24,438 bases of DNA from a virus. How positions within the stretch are numbered: the first letter of the stretch is position 1; each line of letters starts with the position of its first letter. A model generated the notes under the pieces. The model was not told where the DNA came from, made no database searches, and was given only the letters and a program-made list of their open reading frames with translations. The translations under genes and the position numbers were made by a program. Below are positions 3-24,438 of this stretch, one piece after another. The stretch lies in IMG/VR virus record IMGVR_UViG_3300022933_000023, positions 1-24,438 of that record; one strand, given 5' to 3'.

Positions 3-977
3 AGCCTTGCGATGAGTATTCATCCAAGAATGGCGATAGTGGAGGGGCAGGTCAACCTCGACGACTGCCTTAACACCGAGGTTGGAAGTTTGATCCGCCA
101 ACGGTCAGCCGGTATGGTCACCCCGTTTGCTATGCCTTTCGTAGGGCGTGAAGCCTTTCCAATGATGCAGTATCTCGATGAGCTGAAAGAGAATCGCACC
201 GGGATCTCTAAAGCAGCCGCTGGACTAGACGCTTCAGCGCTTCAATCAAGCACCGCATCAGCAGTTCAAGCGACGGTCAGTCAGGCTCAACAGCACATCG
301 AGATGATTGCTCGCATCTTTGCCGAAACCGGCATGAAACAATTGTTCAAAGGGATATTGAAGCTGACCATTAACCACCAGGACGAGGAAAGGATGACCCG
401 GTTGAATAACCAGTTTGTCCCAGTCGATCCTCGCTCATGGAATGCTGACATGGATGTTTCTTCAAATATAGCCCTCGGTAAGGGAACGGACACAGAGCGG
501 ATTGCAGCGCTATCGCAGATCGCGGGCAAGCAAGAAGAGCTGATGAAGTTGCTCGGACCGGTGAACGCGCTAGTGTCACCTAAACAATATAGTCATACGC
601 TGGCTAAGATCGTCGAGTTGAGTGGATTTAAAGACCCATCAATGTTCGTCAACGCGCTGCAAGATGGCCAACCATTAGTGCCACCAGAAGCCGCGCAGAA
701 CAAGAAGAAGTCAGCAGAAGAATTACTGGCTGAAGTTCAAGCGCAAAGCATCCAAGCGGATATTCAGAAGAAAGCAGCAGAGCTGGAACTGAAGCGTGAC
801 GAGATGATGCGTAAAGATGATCTAGAACGTGACAAGCTCGATGCTGATATCCATCTTAAAGCAGCCGAGATCCAAGGCAAGCACGGCACCTCAGTCAATA
901 TTGCTCAGATCAAAGCTGACGTAGATCGGGACCGCGAGATGATCAAAGGCATCCAAGCTGGAAGAGGTGTTCGGTAG
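3..977 (+). CDS. Portal protein, C-terminal part (cut by window start)
   Basis: This is the dodecameric ring protein at the capsid vertex through which DNA enters and leaves. The frame is open to base 3 with no stop, and the first Met (base 12) lies inside conserved portal-like sequence (SIHPRMAIVEGQVNLDD), so I treat it as an interior residue of a gene that begins upstream. The visible 325 residues hold a Gly/Pro-containing region, then an Ala/Gln-rich helix (ALQSSTASAVQATVSQAQQ), typical of portal stem and wing helices in short-tailed phages. A long charged coiled coil follows from about residue 230 (ADIQKKAAELELKRDE), fitting a C-terminal helical barrel. The stop abuts the ATG of the next gene, and scaffold and capsid genes follow, the usual place for a portal. 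The family is assigned by recall of sequence patterns; the missing N-terminus limits certainty. Confidence 0.82.
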   Translation, partial: SLAMSIHPRMAIVEGQVNLDDCLNTEVGSLIRQRSAGMVTPFAMPFVGREAFPMMQYLDELKENRTGISKAAAGLDASALQSSTASAVQATVSQAQQHIEMIARIFAETGMKQLFKGILKLTINHQDEERMTRLNNQFVPVDPRSWNADMDVSSNIALGKGTDTERIAALSQIAGKQEELMKLLGPVNALVSPKQYSHTLAKIVELSGFKDPSMFVNALQDGQPLVPPEAAQNKKKSAEELLAEVQAQSIQADIQKKAAELELKRDEMMRKDDLERDKLDADIHLKAAEIQGKHGTSVNIAQIKADVDRDREMIKGIQAGRGVR

Positions 978-2213
978 ATGTCTGGGTTGTTGGTCAATAA
1001 CTATAGCCAGCGCAACCCACCAGCGTTAGGTGATGCGTTGTCAGGTCTGTTGGGTAACTGGGGCGATAATATTGAGCAAGGGCTATTAACTTCTTTCCCA
1101 TTTTTAGCAGAAAACGATCCTTATAAGATCGGGCAAGAGTTGTTGAGAGAAGGAGCCGGACTAGGAACCATAGCTGGAGTTAAAGCTAAGACACTAAACC
1201 CTAAGACTTTAGAACTAGCCGAGCAGATGCGTGGCGCTGGTGCAAGTAGAGATGATATTTGGAAAGCAACTGGAGAGCAGTTTGGACAACCGTCATACTT
1301 TGACCCAGTAGATAACAGCTTTAGGTGGGAGATAGATGATCTACAGATGAAATATCTCCCGCAAAAGCTGTCGGAGACTGAGTGGAGAGGGAGTAATTAT
1401 CTTACTGGGCGAGTAGATCAAGCGGTAGGGGATACCGATAAATGGATAGCACCAAATATCCCAGGGTATGACCCTACATCAGTATCTAGGTTGACGGAGG
1501 CATATCCAAACCTCGGCGGCGTGAGCCTCACAGACTACCCTAAAACTTCACCGAGCGGTATGTATGGGGCATATAGCGATAGTGTTGTAGGTCCGCGAAT
1601 TACGTTGTGGGATCAGAAGCATCCAAGGGATTTAGTTACCCCGCCAAGTAAAGGCACACAGCTTGCTAGAAGAAGATCCACCCTTCTGCATGAATTAAAT
1701 CACGCAATACAAGACACCGAGGGTTTCCCTGGTGGGGGAAATCCCAAGATGTTTAATCAACAGAGCGAGGCTGAGTTGATGAGGGACGCTCTCAGCTGGA
1801 ATAAGGAGATGGATGGTTATATAAAGCGTCATCCAGGTTCAGAAAAATTGGATAGGTCGGGCGTTGAAAATCTCCTACATGAAGAGTTTGACGCTATCGA
1901 GGCGAGAGACTGGGTTCCTAGTAGGGAAGCTAGAGAGTTGGCTGGACAACCCTATTTATACAATCCTGATCTTAATCCGACAGCTAGGAAAAACGCGGCC
2001 GACCTAGTTAGATTGTATGGTCTTGACAGAAAAACGTCTGCCTACTCTGGAAGAGATATATATGACAGGTTATTGGGCGAGGTTGATTCGAGAGCGGTAC
2101 AGGCTAGAAGGGATTTGCCCCTAAGTCGCCGAATAGCGAAACCCTTCTGGAAGGATTACGACGTTCCCGAAGAGCAGATCATTCGACTGCACCCAACTAA
2201 GGGACTCCTGTGA
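978..2213 (+). CDS. Polyvalent-type protein with HExxH zincin domain
   Basis: A 411-residue protein with two parts. Residues 1-66 form a module nearly repeated at the start of the next gene (GLLVNNYSQRNPP, then SGLLGNWG, then ENDPYKIGQ). The body carries a zinc-protease signature, HELNH at 238-242, followed by AIQDTEGFPGGGN. Near the C-terminus GEVDSRAVQARRD (from residue 367) could supply a third metal ligand, E368. The HELNHAIQ..EGF pattern is known to me from metallopeptidase-like domains of large phage and plasmid 'polyvalent' proteins, thought to act on host targets after co-injection with DNA. Substrate and activity here are inferred. Beyond residue 67, 21 of 28 Arg codons are AGA/AGG by hand count, against 5 of 18 in the scaffold gene, which suggests the body was acquired separately. 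It starts directly after the portal stop and its end overlaps the next start (GTGA). Confidence 0.72.
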   Translation: MSGLLVNNYSQRNPPALGDALSGLLGNWGDNIEQGLLTSFPFLAENDPYKIGQELLREGAGLGTIAGVKAKTLNPKTLELAEQMRGAGASRDDIWKATGEQFGQPSYFDPVDNSFRWEIDDLQMKYLPQKLSETEWRGSNYLTGRVDQAVGDTDKWIAPNIPGYDPTSVSRLTEAYPNLGGVSLTDYPKTSPSGMYGAYSDSVVGPRITLWDQKHPRDLVTPPSKGTQLARRRSTLLHELNHAIQDTEGFPGGGNPKMFNQQSEAELMRDALSWNKEMDGYIKRHPGSEKLDRSGVENLLHEEFDAIEARDWVPSREARELAGQPYLYNPDLNPTARKNAADLVRLYGLDRKTSAYSGRDIYDRLLGEVDSRAVQARRDLPLSRRIAKPFWKDYDVPEEQIIRLHPTKGLL

Positions 2214-3634
2214 CCGGCCTTTTAGTTAACGACTACTCCCAACGCAATCCACCGTCACTCGGTGAGGCCATGTCTGGTCTGCTTGGTAACTGGGGTGGCA
2301 ACATCGAGCAAGGGTTGCTGTCTGCGCTTCCAGTGTTAGCTGAGAATGATCCCTATAAGATCGGGCAACAACTACTGCGCGAAGGTGCGGGTGTTGGTGG
2401 GATAGCGTGGCACGGTTCACCTCATAAATACCTCAAACCTGACCTGTCGAAGATCGGGACCGGTGAGGGAGCGCAAGCCTATGGGCATGGATTCTATTCT
2501 GCCGAGGCGAGGGGTGTTGCCGAAGAGTATCAACACTCAGCAGATTGGAGAACAAAATCATCTCGTGAAATGACGTATAAGGTTAACGGTAATGAGGTTT
2601 CTCCAGGGGGGATAGAGGAAAATCGACTACTGAACTATGCTATGGGTGACCGTGAGTTATTCGATAAGCAAGTAAAGTTCCATCGAGAGAGTGCTGAGAT
2701 GAGCGAGGTTCAATCTCAGAAATACCTTGATAGTTCAGTATCAGCAGTATCGCCCGATGAAGCGGCCTCATATAAGCGAATGTCAGAAAATAGTAAAGCA
2801 AGAGCGCATCGAGAGCGTGAATTTGCTGATTTCGGTGGGTTATTGCGTGATGCAGAGGTAAAACCCGCAACCGGCCACCTCTACAAGATGAACATCCCAG
2901 ACGAAACCATCGGCAAGATGTTGGATTGGGATAAGCCTCTTTTCCAGCAATCAGATCAGGTTAAACAGATATTGGATACCGTATCAGATCCAGAATCTAT
3001 ACAGAAGAAGATCGATGCACTGCAATCTAGTTTGCAGAAATTCGATGGTGATGATGATTTATTGGGGCTGCTCACAGGGACCGTAAAAACACCCCCAATA
3101 AACCAAAAGATATATAAAGAGATCGAGCGGTTAACAAACGAAAGACTGCAAGCCGAGAATCTTAGAAATAGGTTGTTGGAATTTAGAAAAAAAGACAACA
3201 GAGAAGGATCGCTTGATGAGAGGTTAATGAGGGTAAGAGGTCAAGATTTTTATAACCATCTCGGAGGTGGTATCTCACCTAAGAAACTCACCCAGAGATT
3301 CAACAACAGAGATGAAGCGGTAGAGTTCTTTAAGGCAGAGAAACAAAGATTTAAAGATTCACCGATGTCATCGGGTAAAGGCACTTATGAGCCGGTAGCA
3401 AAATTAGATGGTGATGAGTTCACGGTAGAAACTTATGCCCAGTTTGGCAAGACTTACGGTCAACAGGCCGCATCCGAATACCTCAATTCACTCGGAATAC
3501 CCGGCATCAAATACCTAGACGGTATGTCAAGAGCAGCCGGTCAGGGATCACGCAACTTCGTATCGTTCACACCCGATCACATCGAGATGTTAGAGCGTAA
3601 TGGCATACCTATGAAGGGGTTACTCGGTGAGTAA
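2210..3634 (+). CDS. Polyvalent-type ADP-ribosyltransferase (ART-PolyVal-like)
   Basis: A 474-residue protein with a GTG start overlapping the previous stop. Residues 1-66 match the N-terminal module of the upstream zincin protein at 53 of 66 positions without gaps. The body opens at residue 67 with WHGSPHKY, then IGTGEGAQAYGHGFYSAE and a Tyr-containing VAEEY. I recognise this as the NAD-binding start of ADP-ribosyltransferases found in phage polyvalent proteins (H of HGS and Y of YGHGFY as the H-Y part of the H-Y-E triad). The catalytic Glu cannot be placed by eye. A long charged helical insert (about residues 140-380) separates this from a C-terminal strand-rich end (NFVSFTPDHIEML) typical of the same family. 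Likely role: modification of a host target on infection; this is inference. Both neighbours' bodies end in KGLL-type residues. The start is supported by its GTGA coupling and by alignment with the paralogous N-terminus. Confidence 0.78.
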   Translation: MTGLLVNDYSQRNPPSLGEAMSGLLGNWGGNIEQGLLSALPVLAENDPYKIGQQLLREGAGVGGIAWHGSPHKYLKPDLSKIGTGEGAQAYGHGFYSAEARGVAEEYQHSADWRTKSSREMTYKVNGNEVSPGGIEENRLLNYAMGDRELFDKQVKFHRESAEMSEVQSQKYLDSSVSAVSPDEAASYKRMSENSKARAHREREFADFGGLLRDAEVKPATGHLYKMNIPDETIGKMLDWDKPLFQQSDQVKQILDTVSDPESIQKKIDALQSSLQKFDGDDDLLGLLTGTVKTPPINQKIYKEIERLTNERLQAENLRNRLLEFRKKDNREGSLDERLMRVRGQDFYNHLGGGISPKKLTQRFNNRDEAVEFFKAEKQRFKDSPMSSGKGTYEPVAKLDGDEFTVETYAQFGKTYGQQAASEYLNSLGIPGIKYLDGMSRAAGQGSRNFVSFTPDHIEMLERNGIPMKGLLGE

Positions 3635-3866
3635 ATCAAAACAACAAATCCGCGACGAAGGACAGAAGGCAACGACCATCGTCGATGATGAACTATTCAA
3701 TACCGTCGTGGAAGAAGTCAAACATGATCTTTTCCACGAATGGATGCGAACAGAAGACACCAAGGAAAGAGAAGCACTGCATGGACTCGCAATCTCGATG
3801 GAAGTGATTCTAACGAGACTACGCGCGAAGGCAGATAATTTAACAATTGAAAGGAACACCCAATGA
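3627..3866 (+). CDS. Small conserved phage head-region protein
   Basis: A 79-residue charged, mostly helical protein with no membrane segment or signal peptide. The GTG start is preceded by AAGGGG at a spacing of about 9 nt and overlaps the ART gene by 8 nt; its stop overlaps the scaffold ATG by 4 nt (ATGA). The central stretch HEWMRTEDTKEREALHGLA and the following MEVILTRLRAKADN recall a small protein often found between portal and scaffold genes in short-tailed phages. I know no biochemical role for it. Its size and position would suit a head-assembly or packaging accessory protein, but that is only context. The real gene status is supported by tight coupling on both sides and a good ribosome site. 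Confidence 0.7.
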   Translation: MSKSKQQIRDEGQKATTIVDDELFNTVVEEVKHDLFHEWMRTEDTKEREALHGLAISMEVILTRLRAKADNLTIERNTQ

Positions 3867-4891
3867 CAACACCCAACACACCAGCAGATTCTGGAATTGG
3901 ATTGTACGACGGAGTCGAACAAATATCTAACTTGGCGGGCTTAATGGACCCAGAGATGGACACACCAGAAGAGCAAGTCGAAGCGGTGACCGAAGAGGTA
4001 TCCGTGACTGACGAAGAACTCGTTTATGAAGCGAGTGAAGAGACAGTCGAGACAGACGAACAAGAACAAGAGCTTTCGGCAGAAGAAGAGCAACCTGATA
4101 TCTACACCGTTCGAGTGAATGGTGAGGATGTTGAGGTCACGTTCGATGAGCTGACGAAGGGTTACTCTAGGGAATCTGATTACCGACGGAAGACCCAGGA
4201 AGTGGCAGAGCAACGCAAAACTGTCGAGAGACAGATTCAAGAGGCTCAAGCCCAATTCCAGAAAACACAGCAGATGGAACAGCAGTACGCTGAACTCTTA
4301 CCTAAACTTGCACAACAGCTACAGGCAGACAATATGCCGGAGCCTAATTTCGATGAAGCGTATGCCGCAGACCCGATAGAGGCCAGCCGACTTGAGCGCC
4401 AGTACCGAGTGCAAAAAGAGGATAGAGCGAAGAAACTGCAAGCGATTCAATCTGAACAGCAGCGACTGATGCAAGAATCCCAGCAGGGTCAACAAGCCAG
4501 ATACCAACAACACCTTGCCGAGCAAGCACAGTTGTTGCCGGACCTGATTCCAGCGTGGGCAGATGAAAAAGTCAAAGCAACCGAAGTTGAAGCAATGCGA
4601 AAGTGGGCAGTTGAAAGCGGTAGGGTTAGTCCTGATCAGATTAATCAAATCGCAGACGCTGGTCATGTTGCATTATTGCATGATGCTTGGAAATTCGGAA
4701 TTGGACAAGCGAAAGTGCAAGCCAAGCGTAAACCGGCCACATCGAAAAAGGGCAAAGCGGTTCGCCCAGGATCGAAAGCCGGAACGCCAAACGCACAACG
4801 CACTGCTGTGAAGAACGCCGCCGGTAAATTACAACAGACCGGGAGCTACCGCGACGCGGCAGATCTCCTAATGAACTTAGACCTAGACTAA
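3863..4891 (+). CDS. Capsid scaffolding protein
   Basis: A 342-residue, very hydrophilic protein that should guide assembly of the procapsid and then leave the head. The N-terminal third is strongly acidic (runs of Glu around residues 35-75). A short beta segment follows (IYTVRVNGEDVEVTFDEL), then SRESDYRRKTQEVAEQR and a long Gln/Glu/Ala coiled coil (about residues 110-225). The C-terminus is Lys-rich and basic, as expected for the part that binds the capsid protein. This build and its position immediately before the major capsid gene are typical of scaffolds of short-tailed phages. The VNGEDVEVTFDEL and DYRRKTQ pattern is common in this group. The start overlaps the previous stop (ATGA). No protease domain is visible, so removal of the scaffold by self-cleavage is not suggested. 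Confidence 0.85.
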   Translation: MTTPNTPADSGIGLYDGVEQISNLAGLMDPEMDTPEEQVEAVTEEVSVTDEELVYEASEETVETDEQEQELSAEEEQPDIYTVRVNGEDVEVTFDELTKGYSRESDYRRKTQEVAEQRKTVERQIQEAQAQFQKTQQMEQQYAELLPKLAQQLQADNMPEPNFDEAYAADPIEASRLERQYRVQKEDRAKKLQAIQSEQQRLMQESQQGQQARYQQHLAEQAQLLPDLIPAWADEKVKATEVEAMRKWAVESGRVSPDQINQIADAGHVALLHDAWKFGIGQAKVQAKRKPATSKKGKAVRPGSKAGTPNAQRTAVKNAAGKLQQTGSYRDAADLLMNLDLD

Positions 4892-4904: not shown

Positions 4905-5855
4905 ATGGCTATCGTAGCAAATACTTTTACTCGTTATGGAAGCGTCGGCATCCGTGAAGAGCTATCAAATGTAATCAAGAACATCTCACCGGAGGATACT
5001 CCGTTTCAAAGCAACATCCGCTCTGAAAGCGTAAGTAACACTTACTTCGAGTGGCAAGAAGACGCACTTTCGGCAGCGGCTGCAAATGCACAATTGGACG
5101 GCGACGATATTTCGTCATTCTCTGCGGTCACTCCGACTACTCGCGTAGGCAACTATACGCAAATCATGCGTAAAGATTTTGTACTTGCTGATAGCTTAGA
5201 ATCTATCGACGCGGCGGGTAGAAAATCAGAATTGTCCTACAACCTTGCTAAGGTAGGAAGTGAGCTTAAAAGAGACGTAGAATTTAATCTACTGAGCAAC
5301 CAAGGACAGGCTGCAGGATCAACGACTGTTGCTAGAAAATCAAGAGGCTTGCCCGCTTGGATTTCGACCAACGTAAGCAAAGGGACTTCGGGCGCGAACG
5401 CTACGGCGGCGACTGCTGCGCGTACCGACGGTACTCAACGTGCCATGACGGAAGCAATGCTGAAGTCAGTGGTTCAGTCTATGTGGAACGAAGGCGGCAA
5501 GCCATCGATGGTTATGGTTGGCCCACACGTTAAAACTGTTATCTCAGGGTTCTCTGGAATCGCGGGGCAGCGTTTTAATGTTGATGGCAACAAGCCAGGC
5601 ACTATCATCGGTGCTGCTGACATTTACGTTAGTGACTTCGGTAACTTGGAAATCGTACCTAACCGTTTCCAACGCGCAAGAGACGCTTTTGTGCTTGATC
5701 CAGATCTATGTTCGGTTGCGACTTTACGTCCAATCAAACAGGTGAAACTCGCTAAAACTGGTGATGCTGAGAAACGTATGGTTATCACTGAGCTTGGTTT
5801 AAAAGTGGATACCGAAAAAGGATTAGGCTTGATTGCTGATCTATCAACTTCTTAA
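4905..5855 (+). CDS. Major capsid protein, SU10-like (DUF5309 type)
   Basis: A 316-residue protein that forms the icosahedral shell. The N-terminus (NTFTRYGSVGIREELSNVI, then ISPEDTPFQSNI) and the middle stretch TPTTRVGNYTQIMRKDF are the pattern I associate with the DUF5309 or SU10 major head protein family with the HK97 fold. Ala/Gly/Thr-rich turns lie around residues 155-180, and conserved strand motifs (MVMVGPHVKTVISGF; IYVSDFGNLEIVPNRF) are present. Length is normal for the family. A ribosome site AAAGGA precedes the ATG, and the scaffold gene ends 13 nt upstream. Codon use for Arg is mainly CGN, unlike the effector genes upstream. A GC-rich hairpin with a T-rich tail follows directly, so transcription is probably reduced after this highly expressed gene. 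Confidence 0.92.
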   Translation: MAIVANTFTRYGSVGIREELSNVIKNISPEDTPFQSNIRSESVSNTYFEWQEDALSAAAANAQLDGDDISSFSAVTPTTRVGNYTQIMRKDFVLADSLESIDAAGRKSELSYNLAKVGSELKRDVEFNLLSNQGQAAGSTTVARKSRGLPAWISTNVSKGTSGANATAATAARTDGTQRAMTEAMLKSVVQSMWNEGGKPSMVMVGPHVKTVISGFSGIAGQRFNVDGNKPGTIIGAADIYVSDFGNLEIVPNRFQRARDAFVLDPDLCSVATLRPIKQVKLAKTGDAEKRMVITELGLKVDTEKGLGLIADLSTS

Positions 5856-17026: not shown

Positions 17027-17525
17027 CGCTTTAGAAGAACTAATCTCTGGTGGCGATGTCTCTACTTTTCGCCACAGCATCCAATCGCTTGAACATGAGA
17101 TGATGAAGCGTGTCGCCTCCGGTGATATTGAGGATTGTTTAAAAGACTGTAAGTTGTCCCACTACTTCGCTCCACCCATCGAGGGTATTAGCCACACGAC
17201 CTACGCGAGAGAGTTATTCATGCCGAAAGGCAGCGTCGTGATCGGTAAGATCCACAAACATTCGCATATCAATATCATCTCTCAAGGGGTGGTATCGGTG
17301 GTTACAGAGCATGGAACCAAGCGACTGAAAGCGCCTTGCACCTTCATCAGTGAGGTTGGGTTGAAGAGAGCAGTTTATATTGAAGAAGATACGGTGTGGA
17401 CAACCATCCACTTAACCAAGTTTAGTAAAGAGGCAGATATGAAAATGATCGAAAAAGAAGTGATAGCTGAGAGCTATGAAGAGTTAGCTCTTGAACATGG
17501 ACCAGCGCAAGGGAGGTTGTCATGA
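17019..17525 (+). CDS. Cupin-fold phage protein
   Basis: A 168-residue protein with a GTG start (GAGGGG upstream), overlapping the S74-domain gene by 8 nt and the next gene by 4 nt. The centre shows a cupin-like beta barrel: YARELFMPKGSVVIGKIHKH, HINIISQGVVSVVTEHGTKR, then PCTFISEVGLKRAVYIEED and TVWTTIH. HKHSH supplies possible metal-binding His residues in the position of cupin motif 1. A helical N-terminus (about 55 residues) with two Cys (EDCLKDCKL) precedes the barrel. I know this family from the structural-gene region of many short-tailed phages. Whether it is a virion part or an enzyme is not known to me. An assembly or fibre role is suggested only by position. Confidence 0.78.
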   Translation: MANALEELISGGDVSTFRHSIQSLEHEMMKRVASGDIEDCLKDCKLSHYFAPPIEGISHTTYARELFMPKGSVVIGKIHKHSHINIISQGVVSVVTEHGTKRLKAPCTFISEVGLKRAVYIEEDTVWTTIHLTKFSKEADMKMIEKEVIAESYEELALEHGPAQGRLS

Positions 17526-18442
17526 CTTGGGCGGTGGTTGGCGCGGCGTTATCCTCTGTGGTCGGGTCTGTCGGTGCAGGGGCTGCGGGTGGTGCGGCTG
17601 CGGGTGCAGTTGGCGCGGGTGCTGCCGGAGCAGCGGGTGCCGGACTTGCCGGAGCGGCTGGGGCTGGGGCCGCTGGAGCATTAGGCGCTGGAGCGGCGGG
17701 TGCTGCCGGAGCCGGAGCGGCTGGGGCATTAGGTAGTGGGGCGCTTGCCGGAACTGCGGCGGGTACGATTGGTGCTGGTGGTGCTGCCGGTGCTGTTGGA
17801 TCTCTAGGAGCCGGTGGAGCGTTATCTGCTGGTAGTGTGTTAGGTTCGGGGAGTGCGTTAGCCGGCGGATCAACTGCCGCTGGTGTGGGAGCATCTGGCG
17901 GGCTACTTAGCGGCACTGGGACCAAATTATTGAGCGGCGCTCCATCAGGGACCAGCGGATTACTGAAAGCTGAAGGGATGATGATGCCGGAATCCTTATC
18001 CGGGTCGCAAAGTTTAGAGGGACTGTCAGGATATAACCCTGGTGGCGCTTCTCTTGATAGTATGTTGAACAAAGCTCCAACACACTCACAGGAGGTTATG
18101 GGGATGCAGAGGACATTACCTAACAACCCAATGGGAGCCTCCAATTCATCCCCATTACAGATGTCTCACAATGATGCTATGGACCCAAGTCTATTTTCAG
18201 AGAGGGGGTTTAATTACTACACGGATCAATTAACTCCATCCAACGACACAATGCAAAAAGCACTTTTAGCCTCGCAAGTTTATGGCGCGTTGAAACCTAA
18301 ACAGCAACAGAAACAACAGCGCCCCTACCCAACTATATCTGCACCTCGGTTCGCCGGAGCGCCTAAAGCCATGAGTAGACGTTCACCGATGCAAGCTGGT
18401 GGGTTGCTGAGTAGTGGAAGACTTGGATCAAGGAGTTACTAA
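17522..18442 (+). CDS. Gly/Ala-rich (silk-like) internal virion protein
   Basis: A 306-residue protein whose residues 5-130 are nearly all Gly and Ala with some Ser, Leu and Val, arranged as repeated AGAAGA, AGAG and GALGAG units. This region could form a membrane-inserting glycine-zipper or a silk-like beta stack. The C-terminal half is ordinary and polar (PESLSGSQSLEGLSGYNPGG; SLFSERGFNYYTDQL), and the end is basic (APKAMSRRSPMQAGGLL; GRLGSRSY). The ribosome site GGAGG lies 6 nt upstream, and the start is coupled to the cupin gene (ATGA). Its place at the head of the internal-protein set suggests an ejection protein acting in the host envelope. The long Pro/Ala-rich minus-strand frame opposite (17422-18144) is a composition shadow. 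No family recognised. Confidence 0.72.
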   Translation: MTWAVVGAALSSVVGSVGAGAAGGAAAGAVGAGAAGAAGAGLAGAAGAGAAGALGAGAAGAAGAGAAGALGSGALAGTAAGTIGAGGAAGAVGSLGAGGALSAGSVLGSGSALAGGSTAAGVGASGGLLSGTGTKLLSGAPSGTSGLLKAEGMMMPESLSGSQSLEGLSGYNPGGASLDSMLNKAPTHSQEVMGMQRTLPNNPMGASNSSPLQMSHNDAMDPSLFSERGFNYYTDQLTPSNDTMQKALLASQVYGALKPKQQQKQQRPYPTISAPRFAGAPKAMSRRSPMQAGGLLSSGRLGSRSY

Positions 18443-18443
18443 T

Positions 18444-19577
18444 ATGGAAGATATGTTTGGTGATGCACCGGATGAGCTTAAGAGTCAATTTGGGCAACTG
18501 ATTGAACAGTTTGGGCCTCCACCTGAGAGTGTTGCGCGTGACCTAGCGACAATTCAGCAGCGGCAGCGGCCCGCCCAACAACCTATCGGTGGCGGATTGT
18601 TCGACGCTTATTCCCAGGAAAACCAAGGGAATCTGAAGATGGCAATGTTTGCTGACATCATCGGTAATCTGGCCGGTAAAGATGTTGGCGCGACGAAAGG
18701 TATGTTGGCACTCGCTGAGAACGCGAGGAAGTTGCGATTGCAGAATGAGCAACGAACTGCCGCACAGAATATGCTGGGTGGTGGGGGTTCTGGGGCTGGT
18801 GGTAGTGAGTGGATGACTCCGCAGCAGAAGGCGGCCATCGCATCTATAGCTAGAACCAATCCTACCGAAGCGATGAAGATGATGGCCACTATGAAGATGC
18901 AGTACGACTCCGCTGGATTGGCCTTGAATAAGAATCTATTCACCCAAGAGTCAGGGTTGCGTGGGGAGTTCCAGAAATTAACTAAAGACTTCAGAGATGT
19001 ACAGGAATCGTTCGGTAGAGTAGTTCAGTCAGCGGAGCCTGGTCCGAACGGTCACCACGCAGCGGGGGATTTAGCGTTAGTTTTTAACTACATGAAGATG
19101 TTAGATCCTGGGTCTGTAGTAAGGGAAGGCGAGTTTGCAACAGCGGCAAAAGCTGCGGGACTTGGTGAGACTATGATAGCCGCGATGAAGAAAGTGGATA
19201 ACGGCGACATACTCACCTCATCTATGCGTCAGGATTTTGTAGACCGGTCGTGGAAATTGTACAGCGAGGCGGCGCGGGGTTTTGATACTACATCTAGCGA
19301 GTACGTTGATCTATCGAAGATGTACCAAGGTGTAGACCCTTCTAAGGTTGTTACGTCAGATCGAAGATATAAGGACGATTGGTTTAAGCCTTGGTTTCAA
19401 GGGTTGGGTGGGAATCCGGCGGATAGTGAGGATGAGCCTGGTTTTCTTGATTCTTTATTTGGAGGTAAACCGTTACCCCCTCCAGCAGTCAAACCTAAAA
19501 ATAACCCTCCATCAAAACTTAACTCAAGATACAAACAGATGATGAAAGATGGATTGCTTAACAGAACAGGAAAATAG
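18444..19577 (+). CDS. Internal virion / ejection protein
   Basis: A 377-residue helical protein. I place the start at ATG 18444 (EDMFGDAPDELKSQFGQL), 8 nt after a good AGGAG. The in-frame ATG at 18414 lies inside the preceding gene and has no ribosome site. Features: Pro/Gln-rich segment (IQQRQRPAQQPIGGGLFDAY), helix LAENARKLRLQNEQRTAAQN, a Gly-rich linker at about 107-117, then a long helical part (LRGEFQKLTKDFRDVQESF). The conserved block DLALVFNYMKMLDPGSVVRE with GEFATAA is a motif I know from internal or injected proteins of many phages. It probably joins the protein set ejected ahead of DNA. A Pro-rich C-terminus (PLPPPAVKPKNNPPSKL) may be flexible. It stands two bases from both neighbours. 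Confidence 0.75.
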   Translation: MEDMFGDAPDELKSQFGQLIEQFGPPPESVARDLATIQQRQRPAQQPIGGGLFDAYSQENQGNLKMAMFADIIGNLAGKDVGATKGMLALAENARKLRLQNEQRTAAQNMLGGGGSGAGGSEWMTPQQKAAIASIARTNPTEAMKMMATMKMQYDSAGLALNKNLFTQESGLRGEFQKLTKDFRDVQESFGRVVQSAEPGPNGHHAAGDLALVFNYMKMLDPGSVVREGEFATAAKAAGLGETMIAAMKKVDNGDILTSSMRQDFVDRSWKLYSEAARGFDTTSSEYVDLSKMYQGVDPSKVVTSDRRYKDDWFKPWFQGLGGNPADSEDEPGFLDSLFGGKPLPPPAVKPKNNPPSKLNSRYKQMMKDGLLNRTGK

Positions 19578-23476: not shown

Positions 23477-23490
23477 AGTTGGGATCTGAG

Positions 23491-24438
23491 TTGGCGAATT
23501 TTACCAAGGTTGGTAGTCGCTACCGCGCGTCAGTGTGCGTAAACGGAAAGCGAAAATCAAAGACGTTTCGGACCAAGACCGAGGCGCGAGGTTGGGCGCT
23601 ACAAACTGAGATTGAAATAGAAACTGGTGTGGGTGACCCGACGCATTATCTCTTGGAAGATGCGCTGATTCGATACCGTGATGAGGTGACGGTTTTGAAG
23701 AAAGGCTCAAAACAAGAGGGTGATCGAATCAATGCCATGCTGCGTCTTCCACTGGCACAGATGCGACTCGATGATATTACCAGCGATGACATGGGGAAGT
23801 ATCGTGACGAGCGACTGAAGATCAACGGTGGTGGGACCGTGAACCGTGAATTGAGTTTAATATCAGTAATCTTCAATCGCGCCAGGATAGAGTGGAAGTG
23901 GGTGGACCATAACCCAATCTCAGATGTGACCAGGCCAAAGAACCCTAGACCAAGGGACCAACGGATTAACGACAATGAGATCCAGCGAGTGTGTGACGCT
24001 TTGGGTTATGCCGGTGGCGAGATAAATAGTAGTACCGATCTGGTTGCCGTGCTGTTTCTTCTAGCTATCGAAACTGCGATGAGGCTAGGCGAGTTGTGTG
24101 CGGTTGTGCCGAGCAGTGTACATTTGAGTGAGCGGTATGTTGAGGTCACTGATTCTAAAAACGGTGATAAGCGTAAAGTGCCGTTATCTATTAAAGCTGG
24201 TGAGCTATTTGGCAAGGTCATTCATGCTCAAATGAAGATCACTTCAGCCACTGCCGGAGCAATTTACCGTCAGCATCGTGGCGCGGCAGACATGGACCAT
24301 TTCAACTTCCACGACACAAGGCACGAAGCGATCACCCGACTAGCGCAGAAGCTGGATGTGTTGGACCTCGCCCGAATGATTGGGCATAGAGATCCAAAGT
24401 CACTAATGATCTACTACAATGCAACGCCGATTGAAATT
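23491..24438 (+). CDS. int: Tyrosine-type phage integrase (3' end cut by window)
   Basis: At least 316 residues in one frame open to the window end. The best start is TTG 23491 with GGGA 6 nt upstream, giving ANFTKVGSRYRASVCVNGKR, the usual N-terminal arm-binding domain of phage integrases. No ATG occurs until well inside the gene, so ATG-only searches miss it. A SAM-like core-binding domain follows (about 50-150: LRLPLAQMRLDDITSDDM; GTVNRELSLISVIFNRARIE). All catalytic residues are visible: R198 (TAMRLGEL), K223 (SKNGDKRKVPL), H274 and R277 (HDTRH), H299 (IGHRDP) and Y308 (MIYYNAT, nine residues after H299). Only a short C-terminal tail is missing. It integrates the phage DNA at the attachment site, presumably the repeat region directly upstream. 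Same strand as the late genes, an unusual but known arrangement. Confidence 0.93.
   Translation, partial: MANFTKVGSRYRASVCVNGKRKSKTFRTKTEARGWALQTEIEIETGVGDPTHYLLEDALIRYRDEVTVLKKGSKQEGDRINAMLRLPLAQMRLDDITSDDMGKYRDERLKINGGGTVNRELSLISVIFNRARIEWKWVDHNPISDVTRPKNPRPRDQRINDNEIQRVCDALGYAGGEINSSTDLVAVLFLLAIETAMRLGELCAVVPSSVHLSERYVEVTDSKNGDKRKVPLSIKAGELFGKVIHAQMKITSATAGAIYRQHRGAADMDHFNFHDTRHEAITRLAQKLDVLDLARMIGHRDPKSLMIYYNATPIEI

Follow-up and report, generated by a model that had tools for sequence, protein, structure and literature searches.

A shared N-terminal module on exchangeable portal-adjacent proteins is a candidate loading tag for counter-defence cargo in LUZ24/SU10-like podoviruses

Two genes that directly follow an SU10/LUZ24-type portal gene in a viral DNA stretch of 24,438 nucleotides (IMG/VR record IMGVR_UViG_3300022933_000023, positions 1 to 24,438; hereafter the window) encode proteins, A and B, that share an N-terminal module of 66 residues and carry different enzyme bodies (Table 1). 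Comparison of sequences from related phages revealed the same module ahead of further unrelated bodies, an abrupt boundary between module and body, hypervariability confined to this one site, and one cargo protein of the AcrIF11 family. We consider it rather likely, judging from sequence, that the module is a capsid- or portal-loading tag for counter-defence cargo in this LUZ24/SU10-like podovirus, and that the cargo would be ejected together with the DNA.

Table 1. Features of the window and gene content of the corresponding site in related records (positions refer to the window unless a record is named)
Feature	Position	Strand	Evidence or remark
Portal protein, SU10/LUZ24-type, C-terminal part	12..977	+	PF23899 E 2.2e-75; phrog_1216; window begins within the gene
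Gene A, 411 aa, ATG start; module, LPD23 and predicted HExxH zincin	978..2213	+	
Module copy A, residues 1-66	978..1175	+	GLL at residues 3-5, 23-25 and 35-37
LPD23 domain of A, residues 65-125	1170..1352	+	PF18838 E 8.7e-10, exceeds cut-off
HELNH zincin motif of A, residues 238-242	1689..1703	+	HExNH invariant in homologues
C-terminal GLL of A	2202..2210	+	just ahead of B start codon
Gene B, 474 aa, GTG start; module and predicted polyvalent-type ADP-ribosyltransferase (ART)	2210..3634	+	
Module copy B, residues 1-66	2210..2407	+	
ART region of B, first strand residue 64, last 463	2399..3607	+	AlphaFold2 model; PDB matches over 61-466
C-terminal GLL of B (KGLLGE)	3617..3625	+	
79-aa conserved head gene 3' of the cassette	3627..3866	+	kept in cargo-less phages too
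Scaffolding protein	3863..4891	+	phrog_3927 E 1.5e-46
Major capsid protein (MCP)	4905..5855	+	PF17236 E 1.2e-93
Putative internal virion protein, C-terminal GGLLSSGRLG	17522..18442	+	position and tail; without family match
Putative internal virion protein, C-terminal GLLNRTGK, GLFDAYSQEN near N-terminus	18414..19577	+	phrog_13634
AcrIF11-family domain behind the 66-residue module	L003:7554-8375 (also L004, L005)		273 aa; between portal and scaffold genes
Window cassette			zincin; ART
L001 cassette			another zincin; ART, cut by contig end
L003/L004/L005 cassette			third zincin; AcrIF11-type
L006 cassette			ART
L007 cassette			320 aa, no assigned function; SspD/PAPS-reductase-like, untagged
L008 cassette			477, 433 and 130 aa; ART
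L023/L025 cassette			709 and 155 aa
L027 cassette			441 aa
L024 cassette			none

Residues 1-66 of A and B align without a gap, as had been described from the letters of the sequence, with 52 of the 66 positions literally identical, a count that rises to 53 when B's GTG start codon is taken as Met. Counted per ten residues, the identities are 7, 8, 8, 7, 9, 9, 4, 1, 0 and 0, and thus reach the background level directly past residue 66. Searching the window record at the protein level returned exactly two copies of the module (E 8e-43 and 3e-34). The many synonymous changes claimed for its DNA were confirmed, as 31 of the 52 identical residues are specified by different codons. Since synonymous sites are near saturation (pS 0.86, compared with a pN of 0.14), the amino acids of the module appear to be kept under selection. 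The similarity of the two copies is, by these sequence measures, homologous and constrained at the level of the protein, not a product of chance.

If the module were a mere recombination anchor or start region, it would be a piece of conserved 5' DNA permitting the exchange of bodies and having little function of its own. The B-type modules of the different lineages are in keeping with this, being 84-91% identical in DNA with a sharp boundary, and the flanks of the site are conserved head genes. However, copies A and B within the window genome have a DNA identity of 68% at the pS and pN values given above, and the dN/dS of the module in related pairs is mostly 0.04-0.18, near the 0.04-0.08 of the portal, which indicates clear protein-level constraint. 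An anchor with little function is therefore highly improbable.

Of the two enzyme types predicted in the preliminary description, the polyvalent-type ART in B was upheld by profile and fold, and A has the motifs of a candidate zincin. In three homologues of A, a downstream GE..SRAVQ motif is as invariant as the HExNH motif, and the model of A (mean pLDDT 64) gave weak fold matches with Z below 5, several of them to zincins and ArdC. Searched alone against Pfam, B yielded a weak match to DUF3990 (E 0.0013) that stayed under the cut-off, while PF18760 (ART-PolyVal) was matched by 20 of the 33 members of its alignment. The AlphaFold2 model of B matched known ADP-ribosyltransferases over residues 61-466 with Z values of 6-7.7, which lie in a middling range, and matched viral proteins, several of them named ART-PolyVal-like, with E values down to about 2e-12 to 2.6e-14. 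By profile and modelled fold, B is a predicted polyvalent-type ADP-ribosyltransferase. Neither the ART nor the zincin profiles gave a credible sequence match in the PDB. Among sister phages the middle of the ART (about residues 105-220 of B) differs strongly and both ends are conserved; the C-terminal 57 residues of the L006 protein are 95% identical to those of the window ART. The sequences look as if a target-recognition part in the middle region had been swapped between sister phages.

The module has an AlphaFold2 pLDDT of about 40-55 in the models of both A and B, where it is partly helical (predicted helices 17-33, extending to 39, and 48-59) and lies outside the enzyme fold. Because of this low confidence, its mode of binding cannot be read from the models. 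Homologues in other phages bore out that module and enzyme fold are separate: their ART and zincin domains follow different N-termini, which shows the module to be no part of the enzyme. It could still be a duplicated domain that regulates the enzymes, for example by self-inhibition or oligomerization in the producing cell, and that has no link to the virion; two copies are present within one operon, and a helical fold predicted with low confidence would suit an interaction domain. Nevertheless, this one module is joined to zincin, ART, AcrIF11-type and function-unassigned bodies alike, the enzyme homologues elsewhere bear other N-termini, and the cassette is located among head genes, which makes a regulatory domain quite unlikely.

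The exchange of cargo was followed across nine lineages whose portals have 88-100% identity to the reference (88.5% in L007). No two of them agree in the genes that lie at the junction of the portal gene with the 79-aa gene, and one has none there, while the MCP is 85-99% and the scaffold 69-93% identical across the lineage members compared. In sequence, the cassette forms a hypervariable stretch flanked by conserved head genes. Modules of the B type, 91-95% identical to that of window B, head three unrelated bodies (the ART of L006 and L008, the AcrIF11-type domain of L003 and the 320-aa protein of L007), and the identity ends at about the same residue ahead of each of them. Altogether, near-identical modules precede a zincin, an ART, an AcrIF11-family enzyme and one protein without assigned function, and four further proteins are headed by divergent modules (30-43% identical). 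The idea that the cargo is interchangeable was thus substantiated, as the module search shows exchange of C-terminal domains. No function was obtained by PADLOC, Pfam or NCBIfam for the 320-aa protein of L007, the 477- and 433-aa proteins of L008 or the 441-aa protein of L027.

The module is known from one narrow phage clade only. It is present at eight loci in IMG/VR, and a profile that includes the divergent forms found it in 14 of the 34 records searched, always in portal-adjacent cargo genes. A module search of phage records gave chance matches only (E 5 or worse), and a scan of 84,980 bacterial and archaeal genomes for module and portal gave no match. Four records returned for the L027-type module (L119-L122) were discarded as chance matches to WAENDPKAIG in unrelated proteins. 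Likewise, the module and the N-terminus of the putative internal virion protein at 18414-19577 (GLLVNNYSQRN compared with GLFDAYSQEN) were not accepted as homologous; this pairing was the best non-cargo profile match, at a non-significant E of 0.95, and is suggestive only.

Further genes were noted at these sites. The untagged SspD/PAPS-reductase-like gene in the cargo bay of L007 (3409-4206) was recognized by PADLOC with an E of 2.7e-16, and an ORF in another record (L123:300-1160, MKLYISFSGGKTSAF...) looks similar to it. A small gene overlaps the 3' end of the 433-aa cargo gene in L008 (5584-5976) and of the 709-aa cargo gene in L023 (4524-4991), accompanying that cargo in both records; it is possibly a partner, chaperone or immunity gene. 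In the window, the protein encoded at 17522-18442 has an extremely Ala/Gly-rich, repeat-like N-terminal half and measures 306, 250 and 223 aa among relatives. At the window end, an ORF (23479-24438) resembles a tyrosine integrase by eye, so the phage may be temperate.

The AcrIF11 profile scored the L003 cargo at 53.9 bits, compared with a curated cut-off of 50, and reached 54.5 bits in three contigs. Its PDB matches were 6KYF and 8DWQ, both structures of AcrIF11, which ADP-ribosylates N250 of Cas8f (PMC13131331). The catalytic acidic pair is numbered D115/E116 in 6KYF and D146/E147 in 8DWQ (PMC12421852). Counted along the alignments, D240/E241 of the cargo aligns with D146/E147 of 8DWQ and, given a five-residue offset, with D115/E116 of 6KYF. 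By sequence, the L003 cargo is assigned as an AcrIF11-family anti-CRISPR ADP-ribosyltransferase with both catalytic acidic residues. While the AcrIF11 proteins of solved structure are small and stand alone, the L003-type domain follows the 66-residue module in a portal-adjacent gene.

In more distant relatives with readable junctions and portals 49-56% identical, the portal gene leads directly into the small gene, and phiM5, LUZ24 and five further phages likewise have no cargo at this position. The sole cargo-bearing exception among the other portal relatives examined is phiGT1, which resembles the window phage in having cargo-like genes (gp4-gp5), the second an ART, at the portal/small-gene junction. 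It differs in that its portal is only 34% identical and the N-terminus of its ART is unrelated to the module; this protein lacks both the module and a GLL leader. In its main text, the paper on phiGT1 is silent on gp5 in the virion. In relatives such as two records with portals 98% identical (L069:217-2904 and L070:78-1421), cargo lies on the upstream side of the portal, and a 45-residue leader, 78% identical and containing two GLL, precedes unrelated bodies. Counted alongside the 66-residue module, this leader swap means that exchange behind a shared leader took place at least twice in the phage group.

The tripeptide GLL recurs in the module, where the middle GL is invariant in 13 modules, and at the C-termini of both window proteins, A ending in KGLL and B in KGLLGE. 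Among all tripeptides, it shows the strongest excess in the N-terminal regions of 59 ART proteins drawn from a variety of phages, with 70 occurrences compared with 8.8 in shuffled sequences (maximum 19, n = 1000) in a set where some distant kinship remains. With one sequence per similarity cluster, which removes kinship only in part, the counts were 19 and 2.6 (maximum 11). For LGL in the same regions they were 14 and 8.9. At the other end of the protein, 31 of 563 proteins of the portal group have GLL in the last ten residues compared with 2.7 in shuffles, and counted by family, with distant kinship not fully removed, 14 of 220 compared with 2.6. The carriers are nearly all cargo or internal-type proteins; ART and zincin cargo is among them, as are SLT transglycosylases, one family of DNA-ejection proteins and a DUF7178 protein. 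C-terminal GLL was found in none of 45 portals, 24 MCPs, 22 terminases and 26 tail A proteins, and in 1 of 36 scaffolds. Two proteins with such tails are annotated as virion components: gp28 of the Sinorhizobium phage phiM5 ('detected in phage particle proteome') ends in PKGLL, and LUZ24 gp53 ('phage particle protein') ends in GGLLF. The annotation of phiM5 DNA polymerase A (L226:18070-20136) likewise records its detection in the particle proteome. The open-access literature yielded no publication that describes GLL as a motif of phage virions.

The stop codon of A and the start codon of B overlap as GTGA, and the C-terminal GLL codons of A and B overlap a Shine-Dalgarno-like stretch for the next gene (AAGGGA and AAGGGG). 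The GLL tails of the cargo could accordingly be a by-product of translational coupling, in which the Shine-Dalgarno sequence of the next gene encodes Lys-Gly and is followed by Leu codons; the stretches AAG GGA CTC CTG TGA and AAG GGG TTA CTC indeed lie a few bases 5' of the next start. Yet a GLL tail without such an overlap is found on the window protein at 18414-19577, phiM5 gp28 has a GLL tail too, and the N-terminal enrichment is independent of gene overlap. As a full account of the tails, coupling is somewhat unlikely; the overlap could explain part of the C-terminal GLL signal. We tentatively propose, as a possibility, a wider docking code for LUZ24/SU10-like podoviruses, in which GLL in an N-terminal leader, a C-terminal tail or both would load ejection proteins and swappable effectors into the head. 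The 66-residue module would be the universal tag of the window clade, and sister phages would deliver a pre-made anti-CRISPR enzyme along with their DNA before phage expression.

The module might act after ejection instead. As an amphipathic segment rich in GLL, it would ease the passage of the enzyme through the ejection channel or the inner membrane, and packaging would then depend on something else. Its predicted helices and its Gly/Leu-rich composition would fit, and the leaders of portal-adjacent cargo in relatives look hydrophobic, e.g., AVPAAVGAGLLAAPEDAEAG. However, the lytic transglycosylases and ejection-type proteins that also carry C-terminal GLL tails would act outside the cytoplasm, and we regard a post-ejection role as rather unlikely.

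Phage T4 places a capsid-targeting sequence of about ten residues on diverse internal proteins, among them the ADP-ribosyltransferase Alt (PMC9026906), and its IPI-III are inhibitors of the type IV GmrSD nucleases (PMC12373910). The cassette resembles these proteins, which are mostly non-essential, in that one N-terminal sequence is found on unrelated, variable proteins. Both sets include an ADP-ribosyltransferase, and that of T4 counter-defence proteins as well. The T4 tag is shorter than the module and is cleaved by gp21; T4 also differs from the window clade in morphology, and its cargo is encapsidated, which for the cargo described here is a prediction. An S78 prohead protease was not matched in eight related records, some of them fragments, in a search with positive controls; an S77 search was run without a positive control. 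The analogy suggests that the module is functionally like the T4 capsid-targeting sequence; relatedness of the two is not implied.

The comparison with polymorphic toxins made in the preliminary description held only in part. Like the MuF-linked toxins of temperate phages, the cassette combines a constant N-terminus with exchangeable C-terminal enzymes in a head-gene neighborhood. However, those toxins have a MuF domain and a cognate immunity gene and the cassette has neither, and the module is no known structural head protein. No MuF domain occurred among the Pfam matches of A or B up to an E of 1, and no cognate immunity gene was found beside them, A being directly followed by B, and B by the 79-aa gene of cargo-less phages. 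The comparison is therefore a loose one, and by analogy the T4 internal proteins with their capsid-targeting sequence are the closer precedent. Polyvalent-protein effectors share enzyme and associated domains (ART-PolyVal, LPD23, MPTase/zincin) and the phage context with the cassette, but each is one giant multidomain protein, whereas the cassette consists of single-enzyme proteins with a common tag.

In the loading-tag reading, the slot that separates the portal gene from the 79-aa gene would be a cargo bay, and the module would recruit effectors of unrelated kinds to the head during assembly. Its probable binding partner would be the portal, the scaffold or the ejection-protein core, with the GLL motifs as presumed contact points. 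The effectors would then leave the head together with the DNA and, as infection begins, disarm the defences of the host. If this is correct, short-tailed phages would own a T4-like general address label for head-carried proteins and a built-in slot in which counter-defence enzymes are exchanged, and GLL would offer a simple sequence handle for finding virion-borne effectors in metagenomes. The tagged AcrIF11-type enzyme would represent an anti-CRISPR activity that enters the cell with the DNA, which would bear on the survival of the phage in the interval preceding its own gene expression.
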